From: Eubacteriaceae bacterium
GTDB lineage: Bacteria; Bacillota; Clostridia; Eubacteriales; Anaerofustaceae
Direction of reading: 5' to 3'
NCBI GenBank assembly: GCA_017531485.1
Contig: JAFXKY010000061.1
Location: forward strand, 1 to 40,815
DNA length: 40,815 nucleotides
Below the pieces are notes generated by a model. It searched no databases and was not told where the DNA came from. It saw only the letters and a program-made list of their open reading frames with translations. Position 1 is the stretch's first letter, and each line of letters opens with the position of its first letter. Below, one piece after another: positions 12,183-40,815 of this stretch. A program made the position numbers and the translations under genes.

Positions 12183-12197
12183 AACATCACCCCTCTC

Positions 12198-12362
12198 TCA
12201 AAACCTTCTTACAGGTGCCATAAACACCTTCAGTATCACATCGTCAATAAAATCCGTGTACTTCCCTTCACGATGAAGCTCGTTTTTCAATTCCACAAGA
12301 CTGTAGAGAATGGTGCTGAGTTCCGCCTCAGTGAGATAAAATCTGAGTCTGTTTTTCTTCAT
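12198..12362 (-). CDS. Small ICE protein, 54 aa, first gene of the par operon
   Basis: A 54-aa frame, starting MKKNRLRFYLTEAELSTILY, has AAGGAGG 6 nt before its ATG and lies 15 bp upstream of parA. It is a soluble, probably helical protein. The segment YTDFIDDVILKVF resembles YIEDMILMLTDE of the 57-aa gene beside the coupling protein. Function unknown; the position suggests a small regulator of the partition operon. It is the outermost element gene seen on this side. Confidence 0.65.
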   Translation of the reverse strand: MKKNRLRFYLTEAELSTILYSLVELKNELHREGKYTDFIDDVILKVFMAPVRRF

Positions 12363-12640
12363 GTTGCCTCCTTAGGTTAATTTTATATAAAGTGAAGAAG
12401 TCCGAATGTATAACTATTCACCTTATGTCGTTTTCAGAGTTGACCCGGCAGGTCGTTTATGATATTGTGATACAGGCTTGTCCGTTCATTATTTTCCCGG
12501 ACAGAACATCCGGACCGGACATATGCCAATTTCAGATATGTATCAGGTTAATTAATTTATCCAAATAGCTGATTTTTCCTGTTATTTTTAAGCATTTACG
12601 CTGTCGGTGCAGCCACAAACTTTCTTTTATTATTTTCTCT
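12363..12640. other. Non-coding junction between ICE and core chromosome
   Basis: No gene was found. The part nearest the ICE is AT-rich and holds a TATAAA-like box that may serve the par operon. At ~12480-12535 there are repeated CCGGACA words (CCGGACAgaaca TCCGGACCGGACA). The ICE attachment site may lie here or in the adjoining repeat, but no direct repeat could be matched because the other ICE end is outside the window. Confidence 0.4.
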
Positions 12641-12649
12641 GATGTTTTC

Positions 12650-12956
12650 CCGCTTGTTCCGCTGAAATGGGATTTCAGCGGTTTGTGAGTAAGTGGAACA
12701 TCTTTATCTCCCCCACTCTTTCGGTTTATAATCCCCTCATCCGTCGGCTTTGCCGACACCTTCCCCACGTGGGCGTCAAAGCACCGTGCATCCGTCAAAA
12801 TCTGCGGCAAGCTCCGATTCTGACTCCGCAGGTGCTCCTCCGCCCTGTTCCGCTGAAATGGGATTTCAGCGGGTTGAGGTTCGTGGAACATACGTTTTTC
12901 TCTGATCTTGTGCATATCGCATCCCCCTCTTTCCCCCTTATCCTAAGGGGGACGGG
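12650..12956. repeat. Modular intergenic repeat, cluster 1
   Basis: Contains two copies of the 10-bp-stem hairpin CCGCTGAAAT-GGG-ATTTCAGCGG (12659-12681 and 12850-12872), one ~75-bp core (12773-12846) rich in internal complementarity (AGCACC with GGTGCT, TGCGG with CCGCA), and a CCCCCTTA/TAAGGGGG palindrome at 12932-12952. The same blocks recur at 29.3, 31.2, 33.2 and 40.5 kb. An apparent minus-strand reading frame through it is taken as spurious. Confidence 0.9.
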
Positions 12957-27189: not shown

Positions 27190-28770
27190 TCATTCCGTCA
27201 CGGGGACTTTCTCCCCTTCAAATCCCACCGCTGAGGCGGAGCGCTTGTAGATAATGTCCATAAGTTTTCCTTTCGGGGATGCGCTGTCGTCATCAAGGGA
27301 CTCGGCGTATTCCTCGAAAGTGATGGCGCCGCTGAGGAAGAGTTTCGAGAGGGCTTCTTCCCTTGCGTATTTGCTGAAAGGAGAAGATGAGGAGATGTCA
27401 ATGCGGATGTCAAAGACATATCTTCCGAGATCTTCGCGCGGGATATATTTTATTTCGGGCATTCCGCCGTCATCACTGACCACCACTTCGATCTCGTCTT
27501 CACCGTAAACAAACATCATTTCCAGCCACACCTCCGCCATGTCTTCCACAAACTGCCTGAGGGATGCGACGTGTCTGTTGAGGGGGATCTCTGCCGCATC
27601 ACGAACGGCGATGATCGCCGCGCCGCTGGCGTTTTCCGGATTGACCGTTCCGAGAGATGCTTCGCTTGTGCCCGCAAGGGAGGTTGTCAGCTCGATCATC
27701 TGCGGAATGATGTTTCCGGCGATGGGGTTGATGGCGGAAGGCTGCATATATCCGATGACGTCGTCGATCTTCTGCATCTTCATGTTGTTAAGGGCGATGG
27801 ATGAGCCGACGGTTGAAAGCTTTTCCACCCCGTCGCGGCTGAGGACCGCGCTGTCATAAACCACATGGGGAAAGGCGAACTGCCTGATGCCGCTGAGGAG
27901 GCGGAAAAGAGATTTGTTTATCTCCACCTGATTGTCAATAAGCGGAAAGACTTCCGAAAGCCCTCTTGCGGAGCCTTTGTCTTCCTTCCATGCAAAGCGG
28001 CAGACGGGATAGTTCTTCATTCCCGCAATCTTCACTTCCGGCATTATGTACGCATTTTTCGTGACCCTTACAGCATGGACTTCGCCGTCCTTTTTATAAA
28101 GCTTCAGTATACTCAGGCACTTTTCGTTTTCGTCCCCGTTTTCAAGCTCCCTTTTTGCGTTTTCCCCCACAAACACCCTCGTTTCTTCGTCGGGGGTGAT
28201 GTTTGTGATATTTCCTTCGTCATAACCGTTCTTTCTCGCCTGCTCCCTGAGAGAAGACACCGCCTCACGGCTGAGGATGAGGATATAAGGCTGGGACTGA
28301 ATGTCATTTTTCTGTTCATCCCCGAAGAGGATGTTGGCGGAGTCGATGATATTCATCTTCATGCCCGTTTCGTCGGTGTAAAAATAAGCGTAGCTGCTGC
28401 CGAAAACGGCGCCGTCGAGGATGATGTCCCAGATATGTTTGTCCATTTTGAGTTTTTCCCACGCCCTTGAGGCGTTGATGTTGAGAAGTTCGCAGAGGGC
28501 GGCTTTCTTCTCCCTGTCGCCTCTGAGGCTTGACGGGGAATAAACTATCGAGAAGCCCTTCTGGGCGATGCTGGAAACCTTATAGTCCACGATATTTTTG
28601 ATGATGTTGTAAGAAGGGGTCTTTTCCGTGCCGAAATATTCCCTTTCCCACTGTTTTCCGATATAGAAGTTGTAGTTCTGTTCGCAGTTGTCGTAAAAAT
28701 TATTCCTCGTAAGGTAATCCACTCCTGCGAGGTACTGTCTGTAAATACTTTCGGGATCGTTTCTGATCAT
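27190..28770 (-). CDS. Phage portal protein
   Basis: A 526-aa portal. MIRNDPESIYRQYLAGVDYLTRNNFYDNCEQNYNFYIGKQWE and YNIIKNIVDYKVSSIAQKGFSIVYSP are hallmark N-terminal motifs of SPP1/P22-like portals in Firmicutes. FRLLSGIRQFAFPHVVYDSAVL, GTSEASLGTVNPENASGAAIIAVRDAAEIPLNRH (the clip/crown region) and a C-terminal helical part follow. Twelve copies form the ring through which DNA enters and leaves. RBS AAAGGAGG lies 5 nt from the ATG. No interruption is seen. Confidence 0.88.
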   Translation of the reverse strand: MIRNDPESIYRQYLAGVDYLTRNNFYDNCEQNYNFYIGKQWEREYFGTEKTPSYNIIKNIVDYKVSSIAQKGFSIVYSPSSLRGDREKKAALCELLNINASRAWEKLKMDKHIWDIILDGAVFGSSYAYFYTDETGMKMNIIDSANILFGDEQKNDIQSQPYILILSREAVSSLREQARKNGYDEGNITNITPDEETRVFVGENAKRELENGDENEKCLSILKLYKKDGEVHAVRVTKNAYIMPEVKIAGMKNYPVCRFAWKEDKGSARGLSEVFPLIDNQVEINKSLFRLLSGIRQFAFPHVVYDSAVLSRDGVEKLSTVGSSIALNNMKMQKIDDVIGYMQPSAINPIAGNIIPQMIELTTSLAGTSEASLGTVNPENASGAAIIAVRDAAEIPLNRHVASLRQFVEDMAEVWLEMMFVYGEDEIEVVVSDDGGMPEIKYIPREDLGRYVFDIRIDISSSSPFSKYAREEALSKLFLSGAITFEEYAESLDDDSASPKGKLMDIIYKRSASAVGFEGEKVPVTE

Positions 28771-28781
28771 TGTTTCCTCCT

Positions 28782-29282
28782 TTATTTATACTTTGCCTTT
28801 AGTTCTTTTTCATATCTCTCGTCTTCGAGTTTGTCTCTTTCAAGGCGGTAGTTCCATGAATATTCCTTCCAGTAATTCTCCATTCTCTCCCTCGCCAGAT
28901 CCATGGCGGAAGAAAGCTTTTCTTCATCGTTTTCCGCCTGTGAAGAGAGAAGGTCCCTGATGAGGGAGGTGGTGATATCCTTTTTCTCTTTTATTGCGTC
29001 GGAGAGTTTCATCTGATATTCGGAGAAATCCTTTCCGAGGATACTTCTCTCCTTGCCTGATGAGCCGAGGCCTGCGGAAGATATCTTTTCGAAGTTATTT
29101 CCGTAGGGGTTGGTCGAGTGTTTATATTCCTTATATGCATCTCTTGCGGAGGTGAGATATTCCTCCTGCGCTTTTTCAAGGCCGTATGAATAGTCCGATC
29201 TTAATTTTTCGTCCCTGACGGAATATATTTCATCCCTCAGGTCGTTCATGGCCTTTTCGTAATCTTCAAATGAGTATTTCAT
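28782..29282 (-). CDS. Coiled-coil phage head-region protein of unknown role
   Basis: A 166-aa, highly charged, helical protein (YEKAMNDLRDEIYSVRDEKLRSDYSYGLEKAQEEYLTSARDAYKEYK; C-terminal RERMENYWKEYSWNYRLERDKLEDERYEKELKAKYK). A glycine/serine break lies near residues 60-80. It is translated from AAAGGAG and is followed 11 nt later by the portal gene. No family recognised. Long helices next to a portal gene would fit an internal or ejection protein, or a scaffold helper, but this is not shown. Confidence 0.7.
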   Translation of the reverse strand: MKYSFEDYEKAMNDLRDEIYSVRDEKLRSDYSYGLEKAQEEYLTSARDAYKEYKHSTNPYGNNFEKISSAGLGSSGKERSILGKDFSEYQMKLSDAIKEKKDITTSLIRDLLSSQAENDEEKLSSAMDLARERMENYWKEYSWNYRLERDKLEDERYEKELKAKYK

Positions 29283-29314
29283 TTAAGCTCCTTTCTTGTG
29301 TTTTAAATTATTTT

Positions 29315-29592
29315 TGGGGTCGATCCCCCTGATGACTGCGTCATCTTTCCCCCTTATCCTAAGGGGGACGTCAGCGAGCGGCTCCCGCGATGGTGACAGG
29401 GGGATGGGGGCGTCAGAGCACCGTGCATCCGTCAAAATCTGCGGCAAGCTCCGATTCTGACTCCGCAGGTGCTCCTCCGCCCTGTTCCGCTGAAATGGGA
29501 TTTCAGCGGGTTTGGTTGGTGGAACACCCGTTTTTCCCTGACCTTGTGCATATCGCATCCCCCTGTATCCCCCTTATAAATAAGGGGGATTT
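29315..29592. repeat. Modular intergenic repeat, cluster 2 (inside the phage operon)
   Basis: Contains a GATGAC-TGC-GTCATC hairpin, the CCCCCTTA/TAAGGGGG palindrome, the cassette ending GATGGTGACAGGGGGATGG, the ~75-bp core (29410-29482), the hairpin CCGCTGAAAT-GGG-ATTTCAGCGG (29487-29509) and the TTGGTGGAACACCC module. It fills the 311-bp gap between the terminase stop and the 166-aa gene. Confidence 0.9.
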
Positions 29593-29593
29593 A

Positions 29594-31093
29594 TTACACC
29601 ACCCTTACCGTATCCCTTCCGTTTTCCTTCTCAAAAGCGAAGTTCACACGGCGCTTTGCGGCATATGGAGTTTCGGGGACGGGCGGTTCGTCTGTGAGGA
29701 TATAATAGGCGATGGCAAGGGCCATGACGTGATCGTCATGAGTTCCGCTTTCCGCTTCGATCCTGCCTCGTGAGTTGCGGACAAAACTCAGCATCTCATA
29801 AAGGGTGTCGCGGTCGTTTATAAGCGACGGGTCTTCGCGGAATACCCTCATGAGATTGGAGATAATGGCAGGGCGGGTCACGGCAGTGGTGCGGAAACCG
29901 TATGACGGGACAGGGCGACGGGTGATGGAATCTTCCGTGCGGCGGATGTACTGATTTTCATACCCAAGGCGGCTCGCTTCCCTGACGGGATAGGTGGAGA
30001 AGTTACATTCGAAACATAATACCGCGTCGTTGTAATAGCGGCTTATTCCCACGCACTGCCCCACAAAGCGGTCTTCCTCGGATTCCACGGAAATGACTGC
30101 CACCTGACGGAGGGTTTCGGCACATATGACCTGACATACGTTTTTGTCACTCCCTTCCCCTGCGGTGTCTGCGGCGGCGATGTATGAATGCCCGGGGGAT
30201 GGATGTTCGTATATCCTGACGCATCCCGTCTCCATTGGGACATACTGCCATATCCCTTCCCCGCAACCTGTGAACTCACCGATGCTGACGGGAGGGGTGA
30301 TCTTTCCGAGGCGGTCGTTTACGGCCTTTGAACCGAAGACGCATTTTCCCGTCACTCCCCAGTTGCCGAGGCAGTACACGTTGTAGTAATACTCATCAAG
30401 CTCCCTGAAATCCTCAAGCACGGACTTTGAGTCCTCGCCCATGAATCTGTTGTCAAGGTATGTGCTTTTGACGACGGTTGCCTTTTTGTCTTCCCTGTCG
30501 AAAAAGCGCGCTTTGAGCCAGTGATTCACGTTTATGGGGTTGAAGGAGAGAATGAGCTGTCTGTAATGCCCGTTCTCACCGCGGAGTCTGAGGTCCACCT
30601 GATTGAAGTCGGCTTCACTGATCTCGCTGGCTTCTTCGATCCAGACCATTGTGATGCCGAAGACGGATTTTAATTTCTCCGCATCGTCAAGCCCCGCAAA
30701 GATTATTCGTGAGCCGTTCGGGGAAGATATGGACATATCGGTTTTGGAGATATTCCACTTTTTCACGTCGTAATACTGAGATATCTGGCTGACGAGCTGT
30801 GAATAACAGCTTTCGCGGAGGGTCTTTGCCACCTTTCTCAGGACGAGGATAGTATGTCCCTTTTCACGGTACGCCCTTTCGATGATCTTTCTGCCTGCAA
30901 ACATACTCTTTCCGCTTCCGCCTCCGCCCATGAGGACGATATAGCGGTGGGTGTCGAAATACAGCGGGAAGAATATGTCGTTGCTTTCATCCCGGAGTTT
31001 TCCGAGGTATTCCGAGGCGGCGTGAAATTCATCGAGGGCATGTTCGTCGAGCTGATCTGTTATCTTTATAAATTCGTCGTATGTTATCTGCAT
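29594..31093 (-). CDS. Phage terminase large subunit
   Basis: The start is set at the ATG at 31093 (MQITYDEF), which has AAAGGAG 7 nt upstream; a longer frame of 19 codons lacks such a site. The protein has 499 aa. The N-terminal ATPase carries Walker A GGGGSGKS at residues 56-63 and Walker B ITMVWIEEASE (~150-160). The coupling motif region is LILSFNPINVNHW. The C-terminal nuclease has YIAAADTAGEGSDKN (first aspartate, ~305) and HDDHVMALAIAYYIL near the end (last acidic pair). All catalytic elements needed for headful packaging appear intact. It is the first gene of the phage cassette. Confidence 0.92.
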   Translation of the reverse strand: MQITYDEFIKITDQLDEHALDEFHAASEYLGKLRDESNDIFFPLYFDTHRYIVLMGGGGSGKSMFAGRKIIERAYREKGHTILVLRKVAKTLRESCYSQLVSQISQYYDVKKWNISKTDMSISSPNGSRIIFAGLDDAEKLKSVFGITMVWIEEASEISEADFNQVDLRLRGENGHYRQLILSFNPINVNHWLKARFFDREDKKATVVKSTYLDNRFMGEDSKSVLEDFRELDEYYYNVYCLGNWGVTGKCVFGSKAVNDRLGKITPPVSIGEFTGCGEGIWQYVPMETGCVRIYEHPSPGHSYIAAADTAGEGSDKNVCQVICAETLRQVAVISVESEEDRFVGQCVGISRYYNDAVLCFECNFSTYPVREASRLGYENQYIRRTEDSITRRPVPSYGFRTTAVTRPAIISNLMRVFREDPSLINDRDTLYEMLSFVRNSRGRIEAESGTHDDHVMALAIAYYILTDEPPVPETPYAAKRRVNFAFEKENGRDTVRVV

Positions 31094-31189
31094 TTTTACT
31101 CCTTTCTTTTTCTGACCCGAAGTAATGCTAACACACACCCCCTGTGACATTCCACGACAAGGTGCATGGCGTCAGAAATTGGCGCGGGT
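31094..31189. other. Upstream region of the phage cassette
   Basis: About 95 bp lead from repeat cluster 3 to the terminase ATG. No convincing -35/-10 pair is seen on the minus strand, so the promoter of the cassette is either atypical, inside the repeat, or lost. Confidence 0.4.
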
Positions 31190-31915
31190 CCGGTTCGTGG
31201 GACATCCGTTTTTCCCTGACCTTGTGCGTATCGCATCCCCCTTTATCCCCCTTATCCTAAGGGGGACGGACGTGCTCTCTTAGAATAAGGGAGCTGTCAC
31301 GGAGTGACTGAGGGATAAGGGCGTCAAAGCACCGTGCATCCGTCAAAATCTGCGGCAAGCTCCGATTCTGACTCCGCAGGTGTTCCTCCGCCCCATTCCG
31401 ACAAAATGAGATTTTGTCGGGTTTGGTTGGTGGAACACCCGTTTTTCCCTGACCTTGTGCGTATCGCATCCCCCTGTATCCCCCTTATCCTAAGGGGGAC
31501 GTCATCGAGCGCCTCCCGCGAAGATGACAGGGGGATGGGGCGTCAAAGCACCGTTTCTCACGCACTTCTTCGGTCGGAATCCCCCGTCGGCTTCGCCGAC
31601 ACCCCCTTTGGCTACGCCTCCCAAAGGGGGCAAAAAACGTGCCTGCATCTATAGCCTGTTCCCCATCGTCACTTACAGATCGATCTCTCAGTATCGATGT
31701 ACACATATTTAAAGATCATCTCGCTCTTCTGGCCCCCTTGAACTTTGGTTTAAGGGGGTGACACAGCGTCAGCTGTGACGGGGGATGAGATTTCAGCGGT
31801 TTGTGAGTAAGTGGAACATCTTTATCTCCCCCACTCTTTACATCTCACCCATCCCCCTGATGACTTCGTCATCTTTCCCCCTTATCCTAAGGGGGACAGG
31901 TGCATCTCACCGATT
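31190..31915. repeat. Modular intergenic repeat, cluster 3
   Basis: A mosaic of about 725 bp. In order: the GTGGGACATCCGTTTTTCCC-type module, palindrome, cassette with TCTTAGAATAAGGGAGC, core (31321-31393), a variant hairpin CCGACAAAAT-GAG-ATTTTGTCGG (31398-31420), module TTGGTGGAACACCC, palindrome, cassette GTCATCGAGCGCC...GATGACAGG, and a CGTCGGCTTCGCCGAC/CCCCCTTTGG...CCAAAGGGGG block. A further part (31620-31725) is shared with cluster 4, and a half hairpin with GTGAGTAAGTGGAACATC lies at ~31784-31822. No real gene. Confidence 0.9.
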
Positions 31916-31979: not shown

Positions 31980-33038
31980 TTAAAGGATAGCCTTTCCTTC
32001 TGCAACGAGTTTGTCGAAGTTCTTTCTTGATGCTTCGTAAATCTTTGCTTTAAGATCTTTCGGTCCGCCCATAACTTCAACGAGGCAACGGTTGTCAGCT
32101 CCGGGGCCTTCGATGAATTCCTTGATCCACTGATCAACTTCTTCATCTGTAGCGTTCGGGTCCATTGACATATGGATAGTGAAGATGAATTTATCGCCGT
32201 ACTGTTCTTTGAGTTTCTTCTTGTCGTTAAGCGGCTGTCCGCCCCAGCTGTCAAGACCTGCTTCGATGATCATGGGAACGAGGGGTTCAACGTATCCGCA
32301 GGAGTGAAGATCGAAGTACATTCCGAGGCTGTGTACGTGATCAGCGATCTCTTTTACGTACGGGAAGATCATTTCGCGGTATGTTTCGTTTGAGAAGAAC
32401 TGCGCTCTCTGTGAACCCCAGTCATCGTTGAAGTTTACAACATCCGGATTGAACCATTTTTTGAGGTTTGTATATGTCTTTTTGTGTACGTCTGTTACTG
32501 CACGGAAGAATCTGTGAACATCTTCCTGCTGTTCTTCGTCGATGAGTGCTACGACAGCGCCTTCGAAGTCCATGCATGCGATGAGTCTTTCAAAGAGGCA
32601 TCCCGGAACTGCGCAGGATACGGCTAAATCTTCGTCGAAGTTTTTCTTTGTTTCTTCAGCGCATTTTTCCCAGTCCCATGTGTCCGGATCAGGGATCGTC
32701 ACGCAGTTTTCCCAGTCAGAGATGTCTGTAACTTTCGGGTTGCCCGGTTTAACCATAGCGCCGCCTGCTTCCGGAACGAATACCCACTCGATTCCGTAAC
32801 CGTCAACACCGCCCTGCGGGCTTCTTGCCTGGTTTTCGGGGTCGCATGAAACCATGAACATATTTGTTTCGCCGAATGCGAACGGTGCCCACATCGGCGT
32901 TTTGCCTTCATAAAGTCTGAGAAGGTTTTCTCTCGGTGTGATCGGTGTTGACCAGATCGGTGCGGGAGGTCCGAAGAGCTGCGGAATGGATTTTTTCACT
33001 TCAAGTTCACTTGCATCGAATTTTTTATCAAGTCCCAT
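31980..33038 (-). CDS. UroD/MtaA-family methyltransferase-like protein, copy 1
   Basis: A 352-aa protein of the uroporphyrinogen decarboxylase superfamily. It is closer to corrinoid-dependent methyltransferases than to HemE: it lacks the HemE N-terminal arginine motif and has DLHSCGYVEPLVP (~245-257), resembling the H-x-C-G zinc/thiol site of MtaA/CmuA-type enzymes. Other blocks are MWAPFAFGETNMFMVSCDPE, TIPDPDTWDW, CLFERLIACMDFEGAVVALID and VVNFNDDWGSQRAQFFSNETY. No corrinoid protein is adjacent, so the methyl donor is unknown. RBS AAGGAG precedes ATG 33038; a TATAAT box is at 33086-33091. It is closely similar along its whole length to the gene at 33913-34968. Confidence 0.85.
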   Translation of the reverse strand: MGLDKKFDASELEVKKSIPQLFGPPAPIWSTPITPRENLLRLYEGKTPMWAPFAFGETNMFMVSCDPENQARSPQGGVDGYGIEWVFVPEAGGAMVKPGNPKVTDISDWENCVTIPDPDTWDWEKCAEETKKNFDEDLAVSCAVPGCLFERLIACMDFEGAVVALIDEEQQEDVHRFFRAVTDVHKKTYTNLKKWFNPDVVNFNDDWGSQRAQFFSNETYREMIFPYVKEIADHVHSLGMYFDLHSCGYVEPLVPMIIEAGLDSWGGQPLNDKKKLKEQYGDKFIFTIHMSMDPNATDEEVDQWIKEFIEGPGADNRCLVEVMGGPKDLKAKIYEASRKNFDKLVAEGKAIL

Positions 33039-33085
33039 AGTATTCTCCTTTGTGGTAGATAATTAAGTATTTTTACTTTATGTAT

Positions 33086-33091
33086 ATTATA
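33086..33091 (-). promoter_or_regulatory. Likely -10 box for UroD copy 1
   Basis: TATAAT on the minus strand, 48 bp before the ATG. No good -35 hexamer is found at 16-18 bp. The surrounding GATGATATAATA is the same as in the promoter of copy 2. Confidence 0.4.
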
Positions 33092-33179
33092 TCATCGGAA
33101 TTTTCAAAAAATAATATGTTTAAAATACGAAATCTCCCATTTTAAATATGTCTCTTTTGTGCGGAGTGTACTAAGTGGG

Positions 33180-33855
33180 AGAGCGCCGTGCATCCGTATT
33201 CTCTCCCCTACTTTTACATCTCACCCATCCCCCTGATGACTGCGTCATCTTTCCCCCTTAGGATAAGGGGGACGGACGCGGGCGGCTTTCCGCGATGGTG
33301 ACAGGGGGATGGGGCGTCAAAGCACCGTGCATCCGTCAAAATCTGCGGCAGGCTCCGATTCTGACTCCGCAGGTGCTCCTCCGCCCTGTTCCGCTGAAAT
33401 GGGATTTCAGCGGGTTTGGTTGGTGGAACACCCGTTTCTCCCTGACCCTGTGTATATCGCATCCCCCTTTATCCCCCTTATCCTAAGGGGGACGTCATCG
33501 AGCGCCTCTCGCGAAGATGACAGGGGGATGGGAGTCAGAGCACCCGTTCCGGAGTTGGTTCGTGAAACATCCGCATCTCACATACTTCTTCGGTCGGAAT
33601 CCCCCGTCGGCTTCGCCGACACCCCCTTTGGCTACGCATCCCAAAGGGGGCAAAAAACGTGCCTGCATCTGTAACACGTTCCCCATCGCCACCTGCAGAT
33701 TATCTCTCAGTATCTATGTACACACCCTTAAAGATCATCTCGCTCTTAAGGTATTCACTCATGTTCCGGAACATCCGTTTCTCCCGACATTTGTGCATAT
33801 AACCCATCCCCCTGATGACTGCGTCATCTTTCCCCCTTATCCTAAGGGGGACACA
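33180..33855. repeat. Modular intergenic repeat, cluster 4
   Basis: A mosaic parallel to cluster 3: GATGAC-TGC-GTCATC, palindrome, cassette with GCGATGGTGACAGG, core (33313-33387), hairpin CCGCTGAAAT-GGG-ATTTCAGCGG (33391-33413), TTGGTGGAACACCC module, palindrome, GTCATCGAGCGCC cassette, CGTCGGCTTCGCCGAC block, the CAAAAAACGTGCCTGCATCT module and AAAGATCATCTCGCTCTT. It then ends with another GATGAC-TGC-GTCATC and palindrome. No gene supported. Confidence 0.9.
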
Positions 33856-33884
33856 AAAAGAGCACCTGCCTGTGCAGATGCCCT
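33853..33884 (-). terminator. Terminator after the second UroD-family gene
   Basis: On the minus strand GGGCATCTGC-ACAG-GCAGGTGCTC (one wobble, one mismatch) is followed by TTTTTGTGT. It is 29 bp after the stop codon. Confidence 0.72.
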
Positions 33885-33912
33885 GTGGAGAATTATAATA
33901 CGAATCCGTTTA

Positions 33913-34968
33913 TCAGAGGATCGCTTTTCCTTCTTCAACGAGTCTGTCGAAGTTCTTTCTTGATGCGACGTAGATCTTTTCACGGAGTGCCGGCGGTCCC
34001 ATTACTTCAACGAGGCAACGGTTGTCTGCACCGATACCATTGATGAATTCTTCAACTACTGCATCCATCTGTTCTTCCGTAGCGTCCATGGGAAGGGCGA
34101 TGTTTGCTGTGAAGATGAACTGATCGCCGTACATCTGTTTTAATTTAAGTTTGTCATTGAGCGCCTGTCCGCCCCAGCTGTCGATGCCTGCTTTGATCAT
34201 AAGCGGAACGAGGGGTTCAGCGAATCCGCAGCAGTGAAGGTCGAAGTTCATTCCCATTGAGTGGATGTGATCGGCGATTTCTTTAACGTACGGAAGGATC
34301 ATTTCTTCATATGTTTCGTTTGAGAATGCCTGTGCCTTCTGTGTGCCCCAGTCATCGTTGAAGTTTACGATTTCCGGATCGAACCATTTCTTGAGGTTTG
34401 AGTAAGTTTTCTTGTGTACTTCCTTGACCTGTGTGAAGAATTCGTGTACAGCATCCTTGGAGTCTTCGTCGATGAGTGCAACTACGGCGTTGCCGTAATC
34501 CATGCACGCGATGAGTCTTTCGAAAAGGCATCCGTATGCAGCAACGTATGTGCAGAGGTCCGGATCAAGAGAATCTTTCTTTTCGTTGTAAAAACCTTCC
34601 CAGTCCCATGTGTCCGGATCGGGGATCGTCACGCAGTTTTTCCAGTCGTTGATGTCTTCGATGACGGGGTTGCCGGGTTTTACCATTGCGCCGCCTGCTG
34701 AGGGAACGAACTGCCACTCTACTCCGTAACCGTCTTTGCCGCCCTGGGGGCTTCTCGCCTGACTTTCGGGGTCGCAGCCGATCATGATCATGTTGTATTC
34801 ACCCATTGAAAACGGTGCCCACATCGGAGTTTTTCCGTTATAAAGACGAAGGGTGTTTTCTTTCGGTGTAATCGGTGTCGTCATAAGTTTTGTTACTGAT
34901 CCGAATAATCCGGGGATCTCTTTTCTTACCGTAAGTTCGGAAACATCAAATTTCTTGTCAAGTCCCAT
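33913..34968 (-). CDS. UroD/MtaA-family methyltransferase-like protein, copy 2
   Basis: A 351-aa paralogue of the neighbouring gene with the same start (MGLDKKFD) and the same end (EGKAIL). The putative zinc/thiol site reads DLHCCGFAEPLVP (~247-259), so a second cysteine replaces serine. Other conserved blocks are MWAPFSMGEYNMIMIGCDPE, TIPDPDTWDWEG, CLFERLIACMDYGNAVVALID and IVNFNDDWGTQKAQAFSNETY. Divergence is spread along the gene, as expected of an older duplication with altered substrate. Each copy has its own promoter and terminator. RBS AGGAG lies before ATG 34968. A methyl-transfer role is inferred from the family; a true heme-pathway UroD is unlikely. Confidence 0.85.
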   Translation of the reverse strand: MGLDKKFDVSELTVRKEIPGLFGSVTKLMTTPITPKENTLRLYNGKTPMWAPFSMGEYNMIMIGCDPESQARSPQGGKDGYGVEWQFVPSAGGAMVKPGNPVIEDINDWKNCVTIPDPDTWDWEGFYNEKKDSLDPDLCTYVAAYGCLFERLIACMDYGNAVVALIDEDSKDAVHEFFTQVKEVHKKTYSNLKKWFDPEIVNFNDDWGTQKAQAFSNETYEEMILPYVKEIADHIHSMGMNFDLHCCGFAEPLVPLMIKAGIDSWGGQALNDKLKLKQMYGDQFIFTANIALPMDATEEQMDAVVEEFINGIGADNRCLVEVMGPPALREKIYVASRKNFDRLVEEGKAIL

Positions 34969-40534: not shown

Positions 40535-40815
40535 ACAAATCCCCCTTTATCCCCCTTATCCTAAGGGGGGACGGACGTGCTCTCTTAGAATAAGGGAGCT
40601 GTCACGGAGTGACTGAGGGATGGGCGTCAAAGCACCGTGCATCCGTCAAAATCTGCGGCAAGCTCCGATTCTGACTCCGCAGGTGCTCCTCCGCCCTGTT
40701 CCGCTGAAATGGGATTTCAGCGGTTCGTGAGTAAGTGGAACATCTTTATCTCCCAAACTTCTTCGGTTTATACCCCCTCATCCACCGCTACGCGGTCCCC
40801 CTTCCCCGCGGAGGG
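40535..40815. repeat. Modular intergenic repeat, cluster 5 (cut by window end)
   Basis: Contains the palindrome, the cassette with TCTTAGAATAAGGGAGC (shared with cluster 3), the core (40623-40695), hairpin CCGCTGAAAT-GGG-ATTTCAGCGG (40701-40723) and GTGAGTAAGTGGAACATC (shared with clusters 1 and 3). It ends in a CCCCTCATCC/CCTTCCCCGCGGAGGG block at the right edge. Confidence 0.88.

Follow-up and report, generated by a model that had tools for sequence, protein, structure and literature searches.

A probably mobile, folded interspersed repeat found in one genus of Clostridia

Introduction

In a 40,815-nt contig from a draft Eubacteriaceae genome (the window), a core of about 75 bp followed by a 10-bp hairpin recurs almost unchanged at five non-coding places. 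Is this a structured RNA, a mobile non-autonomous element, or one more copy of a repeat already known? A sequence-only reading of the window had taken it for an undescribed modular family and had proposed either of the first two. The source genome comprises 2.17 Mb in 81 contigs and is a 95% complete draft, and the copy counts given below come from search tools.

Results

The repeat unit in the window and across the genome

The five clusters of the sequence-only reading (12.8, 29.4, 31.3, 33.3 and 40.6 kb) are all real, correctly placed and on the + strand, each with the core and then the 10-bp hairpin. However, those at 31.3 and 33.3 kb are not independent, since intergenic stretch and neighbouring gene together form a ~2-kb tandem duplication. 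The unit is G+C-rich, spans about 102 bp and consists of an imperfect hairpin of 75 nt (P1-P4), joined by four bases to the 10-bp hairpin H2. Its copies and the modules around them are as follows.

12771-12872, + strand: full unit; core (P1-P4 hairpin) 12771-12845, H2 12850-12872
29408-29509, + strand: full unit; H2 29487-29509
31319-31420, + strand: full unit; H2 31398-31420 with compensated arms; GGTGTT wobble
33312-33413, + strand: full unit; H2 33391-33413; kin to the 31.3-kb cluster via the ~2-kb tandem duplication
40622-40723, + strand: full unit; H2 40701-40723; close to the contig end
12659-12736, + strand: core-less H2 hairpin (12659-12681) with tail to 12736
12873-12927, + strand: tail module past H2 (GTGGAACA ... 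CATCCCCC)
29323-29405, + strand: adjoining palindromic D module, ATCCCCCTG...GGGGGAT
31533-31553, + strand: core remnant, internally deleted (GGGCGTCAAAGCACCG, then tail)
33526-33560, + strand: core remnant, internally deleted

The near-identity of the copies was borne out. Measured against the 12.8-kb copy it is 93-100%: 100% over 100 nt for the copy at 40.6 kb, 99% for those at 29.4 and 33.3 kb, and 93% for the one at 31.3 kb, which differs mainly by a compensated change in the H2 arms from CTG/CAG to ACA/TGT and carries the GGTGTT wobble variant, as described, in P2. Recent amplification explains this identity between copies, and identity alone is no evidence of function.

A genome-wide blast search returned 42 matches to the repeat, and a covariance model that we built for the unit gave 46 hits: 36 cover the whole unit and the other 10 are partial, in some cases because the contig ends there. 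The H2 pattern CCGNNNAAATGRRATTTNNNCGG occurred 39 times in the genome, compared with 0 occurrences of a reversed control pattern, which excludes chance. Of 40 own copies that were tabulated, none falls within a called gene, and about 75% of the examined sequence is coding. Where both neighbours were called, the flanking genes were unidirectional for 16 copies, convergent for 4 and divergent for 2. Adjacent copies stand head-to-tail on six contigs (C1, C7, C26, C47, C64 and C71), in arrays with spacings of ~180-400 bp, while copies that are 100% identical over 100 nt sit in unrelated flanks on many contigs.

Palindromic modules of other kinds, ATCCCCCTG...GGGGGAT and CCCCCTTATCCTAAGGGGGA, fill the intergenic regions in alternation with the unit. 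Separate modules were seen at 29323-29405 and 33227-33310, with shorter copies at 12933, 31247, 31480, 31877, 33473 and 33832, and another type, GTCGGCTTYGCCGACACC, at 12743, 31586 and 33606. The duplicated region at 31980-34968 comprises two tandem paralogues with a weak URO-D match together with the intergenic repeats; the sister species described below has at least two related genes at the same place.

Boundaries of the unit

The left end is sharp: the unit mostly begins with RCGTC directly after GG, following many different upstream sequences that mostly end in GG, and nearly every own copy, like most of those in the sister species, has CGTC at this end. H2 forms the right end, followed by a tail of ~50 nt (GTGGAACA...CATCCCC) and then by further palindromic modules; several divergent copies have an intrinsic-terminator-like hairpin with a T run past H2. 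With GGGCGTC at its left end and the H2 hairpin at its right, the unit bears no terminal inverted repeats, and a constant target duplication was not found among the copies. Flanking direct repeats accompany only a few copies (47 nt with one mismatch on C15, 45 nt on C44, 15-16 nt on C1 and C71, 20 nt on C73) and are locus-specific, which is consistent with local (tandem) duplication or with target duplication of unusual, variable length.

The stems are maintained by compensatory change

Consensus folding gave two hairpins whose stems are kept by compensation. H2 reads CCGNNNAAAT-GRR-ATTTNNNCGG, and its middle three pairs vary (CTG/CAG, ACA/TGT, CGG/CCG, CCA/TGG and others). In the long hairpin, P1 is GGGCG/CGCCC or GGACG/CGTCC, P3 is TGC/GCA or TAT/ATA, and P4 varies freely in sequence while its pairing is kept. 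The pairing AGCACC/GGTGCT, proposed from the sequence, corresponds to P2 and is backed by compensatory change. The proposed TGCGG/CCGCA pairing, in contrast, is not the one that is conserved. Within CCGCA, the letters GCA have TGC at unit positions 17-19 as their partner, and this TGC/GCA pairing is replaced by TAT/ATA in divergent copies.

Compensation was measured on 17 divergent copies of the source genome, with the partners slid as control. Across these copies 94.3% of cells were paired; 17 of the 32 pairs were changed on both sides, compared with 1-4 when the partners were slid, and the covariation score was 0.384 against 0.046-0.098. A folding program returned nearly the same structure unaided. 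The conserved part is the internal-loop bases, TC/TC beside P1 and TCC/TCC beside P4 (GA and GGA on the other strand), and the stems are the variable part. Stem-loops conserved by compensation indicate that the structure matters, and the compensation says that a folded single strand, DNA or RNA, is recognised at some stage. The earlier argument from conservation thus holds for the structure, but not for the identity between copies.

The fold is stronger on the minus strand, which is the sense strand of the neighbouring genes in the window, at -56.4 kcal/mol (z -7.7) compared with -44.5 kcal/mol (z -4.5) on the plus strand. Folding energy favoured the minus strand in 24 of 24 own and 15 of 15 sister sequences, in part a compositional effect. 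Mismatches of the A.C kind (G.U on the minus strand) comprised 16 types and G.U on the plus strand 7 types, with some rows out of register, so that this count is only suggestive as a pointer to the minus strand.

Searches for known families, foreign origins and an enzyme

Rfam gave no match to the window at the gathering score. In a search of seven loci at E<=1, the one match near the unit was partial and insignificant, to CsrC (17.6 bits against a gathering score of 61; E 0.13). No known repeat family was matched among the families searched, which supports the description as undescribed. A phage or plasmid origin was rejected, since a search of 50,697 phage records and 72,556 plasmid records found no match; in viral contigs the strict pattern was absent, and the sole hit to a looser pattern has non-pairing arms. 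A coding origin was rejected because the unit lies outside called genes and its stem changes are compensatory.

A search of the genome for Y1 transposases found one homologue. In place of the expected HUH motif it reads PDRANFLIS, and the unit does not flank it. A RAYT/REP system was therefore rejected for this 95% complete genome, and the search, which covered Y1 transposases, found no mobilising enzyme; in such a draft the enzyme may be missing or of a different kind. The Y1_Tnp homologue (C73:12856-13170, about 300 aa) lies beside an mcsA-like gene, and a partial homologue in the sister species shows the same HUH loss, which suggests a domesticated, non-catalytic DNA-binding protein.

A second version in a sister species

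A blast search among 60 relatives returned no match. With the covariance model, 2 of 67 genomes of the order matched, namely the source genome and one other of the genus (a weak match, E about 0.001), and the other 65 gave nothing. The H2 pattern likewise occurred in 2 of 391 genomes of the class, the same pair, with nothing in the other 389. The second genome is a MAG deposited as Anaerofustis stercorihominis SIG257, the sole other genome of the genus examined. The repeat is present there in about 15 copies, strongly diverged in sequence and in a similar arrangement of two hairpins, GCGTCGAAAC...GTTTCTCC plus TCGNNNAAAT...ATTTNNNCGA, which lacks P1 and has a larger internal loop. This version shows compensatory changes of its own in P2, P4 and H2: 9 of 27 pairs were doubly changed, and covariation was 0.293 compared with at most 0.106 for slid partners.

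In a collection of 84,980 species we found the sister MAG, scattered single hits and one rumen Lachnospiraceae MAG, RUG12474. The latter has three H2-like CCGNNNAAATGRRATTTNNNCGG hairpins, but these follow a different, unrelated palindromic sequence, and we do not count it among the members; two of the three hairpins lie close to tRNA-like sequence. As judged from these genome searches, the repeat family is restricted to one Clostridia genus. A search of the literature on repeats in Anaerofustis found no text.

Sites with and without the element

The window is largely syntenic with the sister species, and the comparison revealed two syntenic sites that lack the element there. At the 29.4-kb site, between a terminase-like gene and its neighbour, the sister gap is 8 bp against 311 bp here, and at C73:18034 a module array of ~600 bp with one unit is absent from the sister. 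Both element-free sites miss the whole module array (300-600 bp here), not the unit alone. Next to the SRP RNA gene both species carry an element, in each case of the type typical of that species. Concerted evolution at an old site common to both would fit this, as would a target used repeatedly.

In the non-coding DNA upstream of a MinD/ParA-type gene, homology to the sister (~89%) extends as far as 12656, where it breaks off immediately ahead of the H2 at 12659. The stretch at 12183-12656 (~470 bp, ~89% identical to the sister) is unusually conserved for one with no called gene and may hold a small gene or a regulatory RNA. The terminase large subunit gene (Terminase_3) and its neighbours at 27190-31150 suggest a prophage remnant or a phage-derived operon, which the sister has in common.

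Discussion

We consider the unit to be a modular interspersed repeat of the REP/BOX-like kind, non-autonomous and specific to its lineage, which is recognised through its single-strand fold and has spread within one Clostridia genus, at a probability of roughly 0.62. That it is a non-autonomous interspersed repeat is indicated by its identical dispersed copies, species-specific types, compensated stems and element-free sites; that it is undescribed and probably mobile is supported by its dispersal, the identical copies in different flanks, the two element-free sites and the absence of an Rfam match. Of the two natures first proposed, the mobile non-autonomous element is the probable one, but the data do not separate a structured RNA from an ssDNA hairpin that an enzyme recognises.

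By analogy with REPs and their TnpA-REP/RAYT enzymes, a trans-supplied enzyme would recognise the folded single strand, long hairpin and H2 together, and copy or move the unit. Compensatory changes would build up in the source copies because, as we propose, only foldable units move. Arrays would lengthen afterwards as units are duplicated head-to-tail and become joined to palindromic intergenic modules of other kinds. Any copy that is transcribed would fold as RNA, with a possible side effect on the ends of messages. HUH Y1 transposases are the natural candidate class of enzyme. Against mobility stand the sole Y1 homologue without HUH, the lack of inverted termini, the failure to find a constant target duplication, the fact that insertion of the unit alone was not seen, and the SRP RNA site occupied in both species.

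The main rival, which we regard as unlikely, is that the copies are functional structured RNAs (sRNAs or 3'/5' UTR elements) selected locus by locus, that is, duplicated regulatory RNA genes. Compensatory change in two species, the very stable fold on either strand, the terminator-like hairpins with T runs in several divergent copies and the element beside the SRP RNA gene in both species all fit such RNAs. However, gene context and orientation are not fixed, the element is missing at syntenic sister sites, the sequence type has changed wholesale between two species of one genus, and the energetically favoured minus strand is opposite to the reading strand of the terminator-like hairpins.

It is still less probable that the repeat is passive and has no dedicated transposition, with slippage and recombination between the palindromic modules of intergenic DNA both giving rise to the arrays and keeping them homogeneous. 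The head-to-tail arrays with their 180-400-bp spacings, the internally deleted core remnants, the ~2-kb tandem duplication and the locus-specific flanking direct repeats are what such a process would leave, but it does not account for full-length units that are identical although their flanks, on many contigs, are unrelated, for a precise left boundary despite many different upstream sequences, or for compensation that keeps the fold in both species. A more speculative reading, to which we give little credence, makes the unit the recognition RNA or ssDNA of an undescribed mobilisation system of the genus, whose enzyme would read the looped long hairpin, with its conserved, GA-type internal loops on the minus strand, together with H2, while the stems are replaced from species to species and the layout stays. 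An artefact of the draft assembly is very improbable: many copies lie at or near contig ends, but others are found in the interior of long contigs, between unique flanks, and the sister genome, which was assembled separately, carries a version of its own.

Among described repeats, the unit resembles the REPs of the GTAG- and CGTC-tagged super-families in being intergenic, palindromic and mostly located between unidirectional or convergent genes, its left-end RCGTC recalls their CGTC tag, and some REP clusters are, as here, interleaved with other repeat families (PMC3733652). Most catalogued REP-like repeats come from Proteobacteria. REPs measure 20-40 bp, the CGTC types having an 8-9-bp stem, a 4-5-nt loop, predominant head-to-head dimers with negligible head-to-tail ones and, like the present unit, no known transposase; how REP types with no dedicated transposase move is an open question (PMC3733652). 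In contrast to CGTC REPs, our unit is ~102 bp long, contains a second hairpin as well as internal loops and a P4 that is nested and variable, and its neighbours are mostly head-to-tail; the REP tag is unpaired, whereas in the own-genome version the CG of CGTC forms part of the P1 stem. Like BOX of Streptococcus pneumoniae, which is considered non-autonomous, the unit is modular, intergenic, folded, lineage-restricted and present in many copies, but the BOX description (boxA-boxB-boxC) includes IS-like terminal inverted repeats, which sets the unit apart (PMC3049150). MITEs are AT-rich, with terminal inverted repeats and target duplications (PMC3049150); the unit shares with them that it is short, folded, non-coding and dispersed, but it is G+C-rich and has no inverted termini, and only a few copies have flanking direct repeats, of 15-47 nt. 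By the features tested, the unit is therefore not a member of the CGTC/GTAG REP families, BOX or the classical MITEs; it is of the general kind of non-autonomous folded interspersed repeats, with REPs and BOX nearest and membership in neither.

A family confined to one genus, with two species versions, compensated stems and element-free sites, constitutes a compact system for finding the mobilising factor, which comparison of strains could bring to light.
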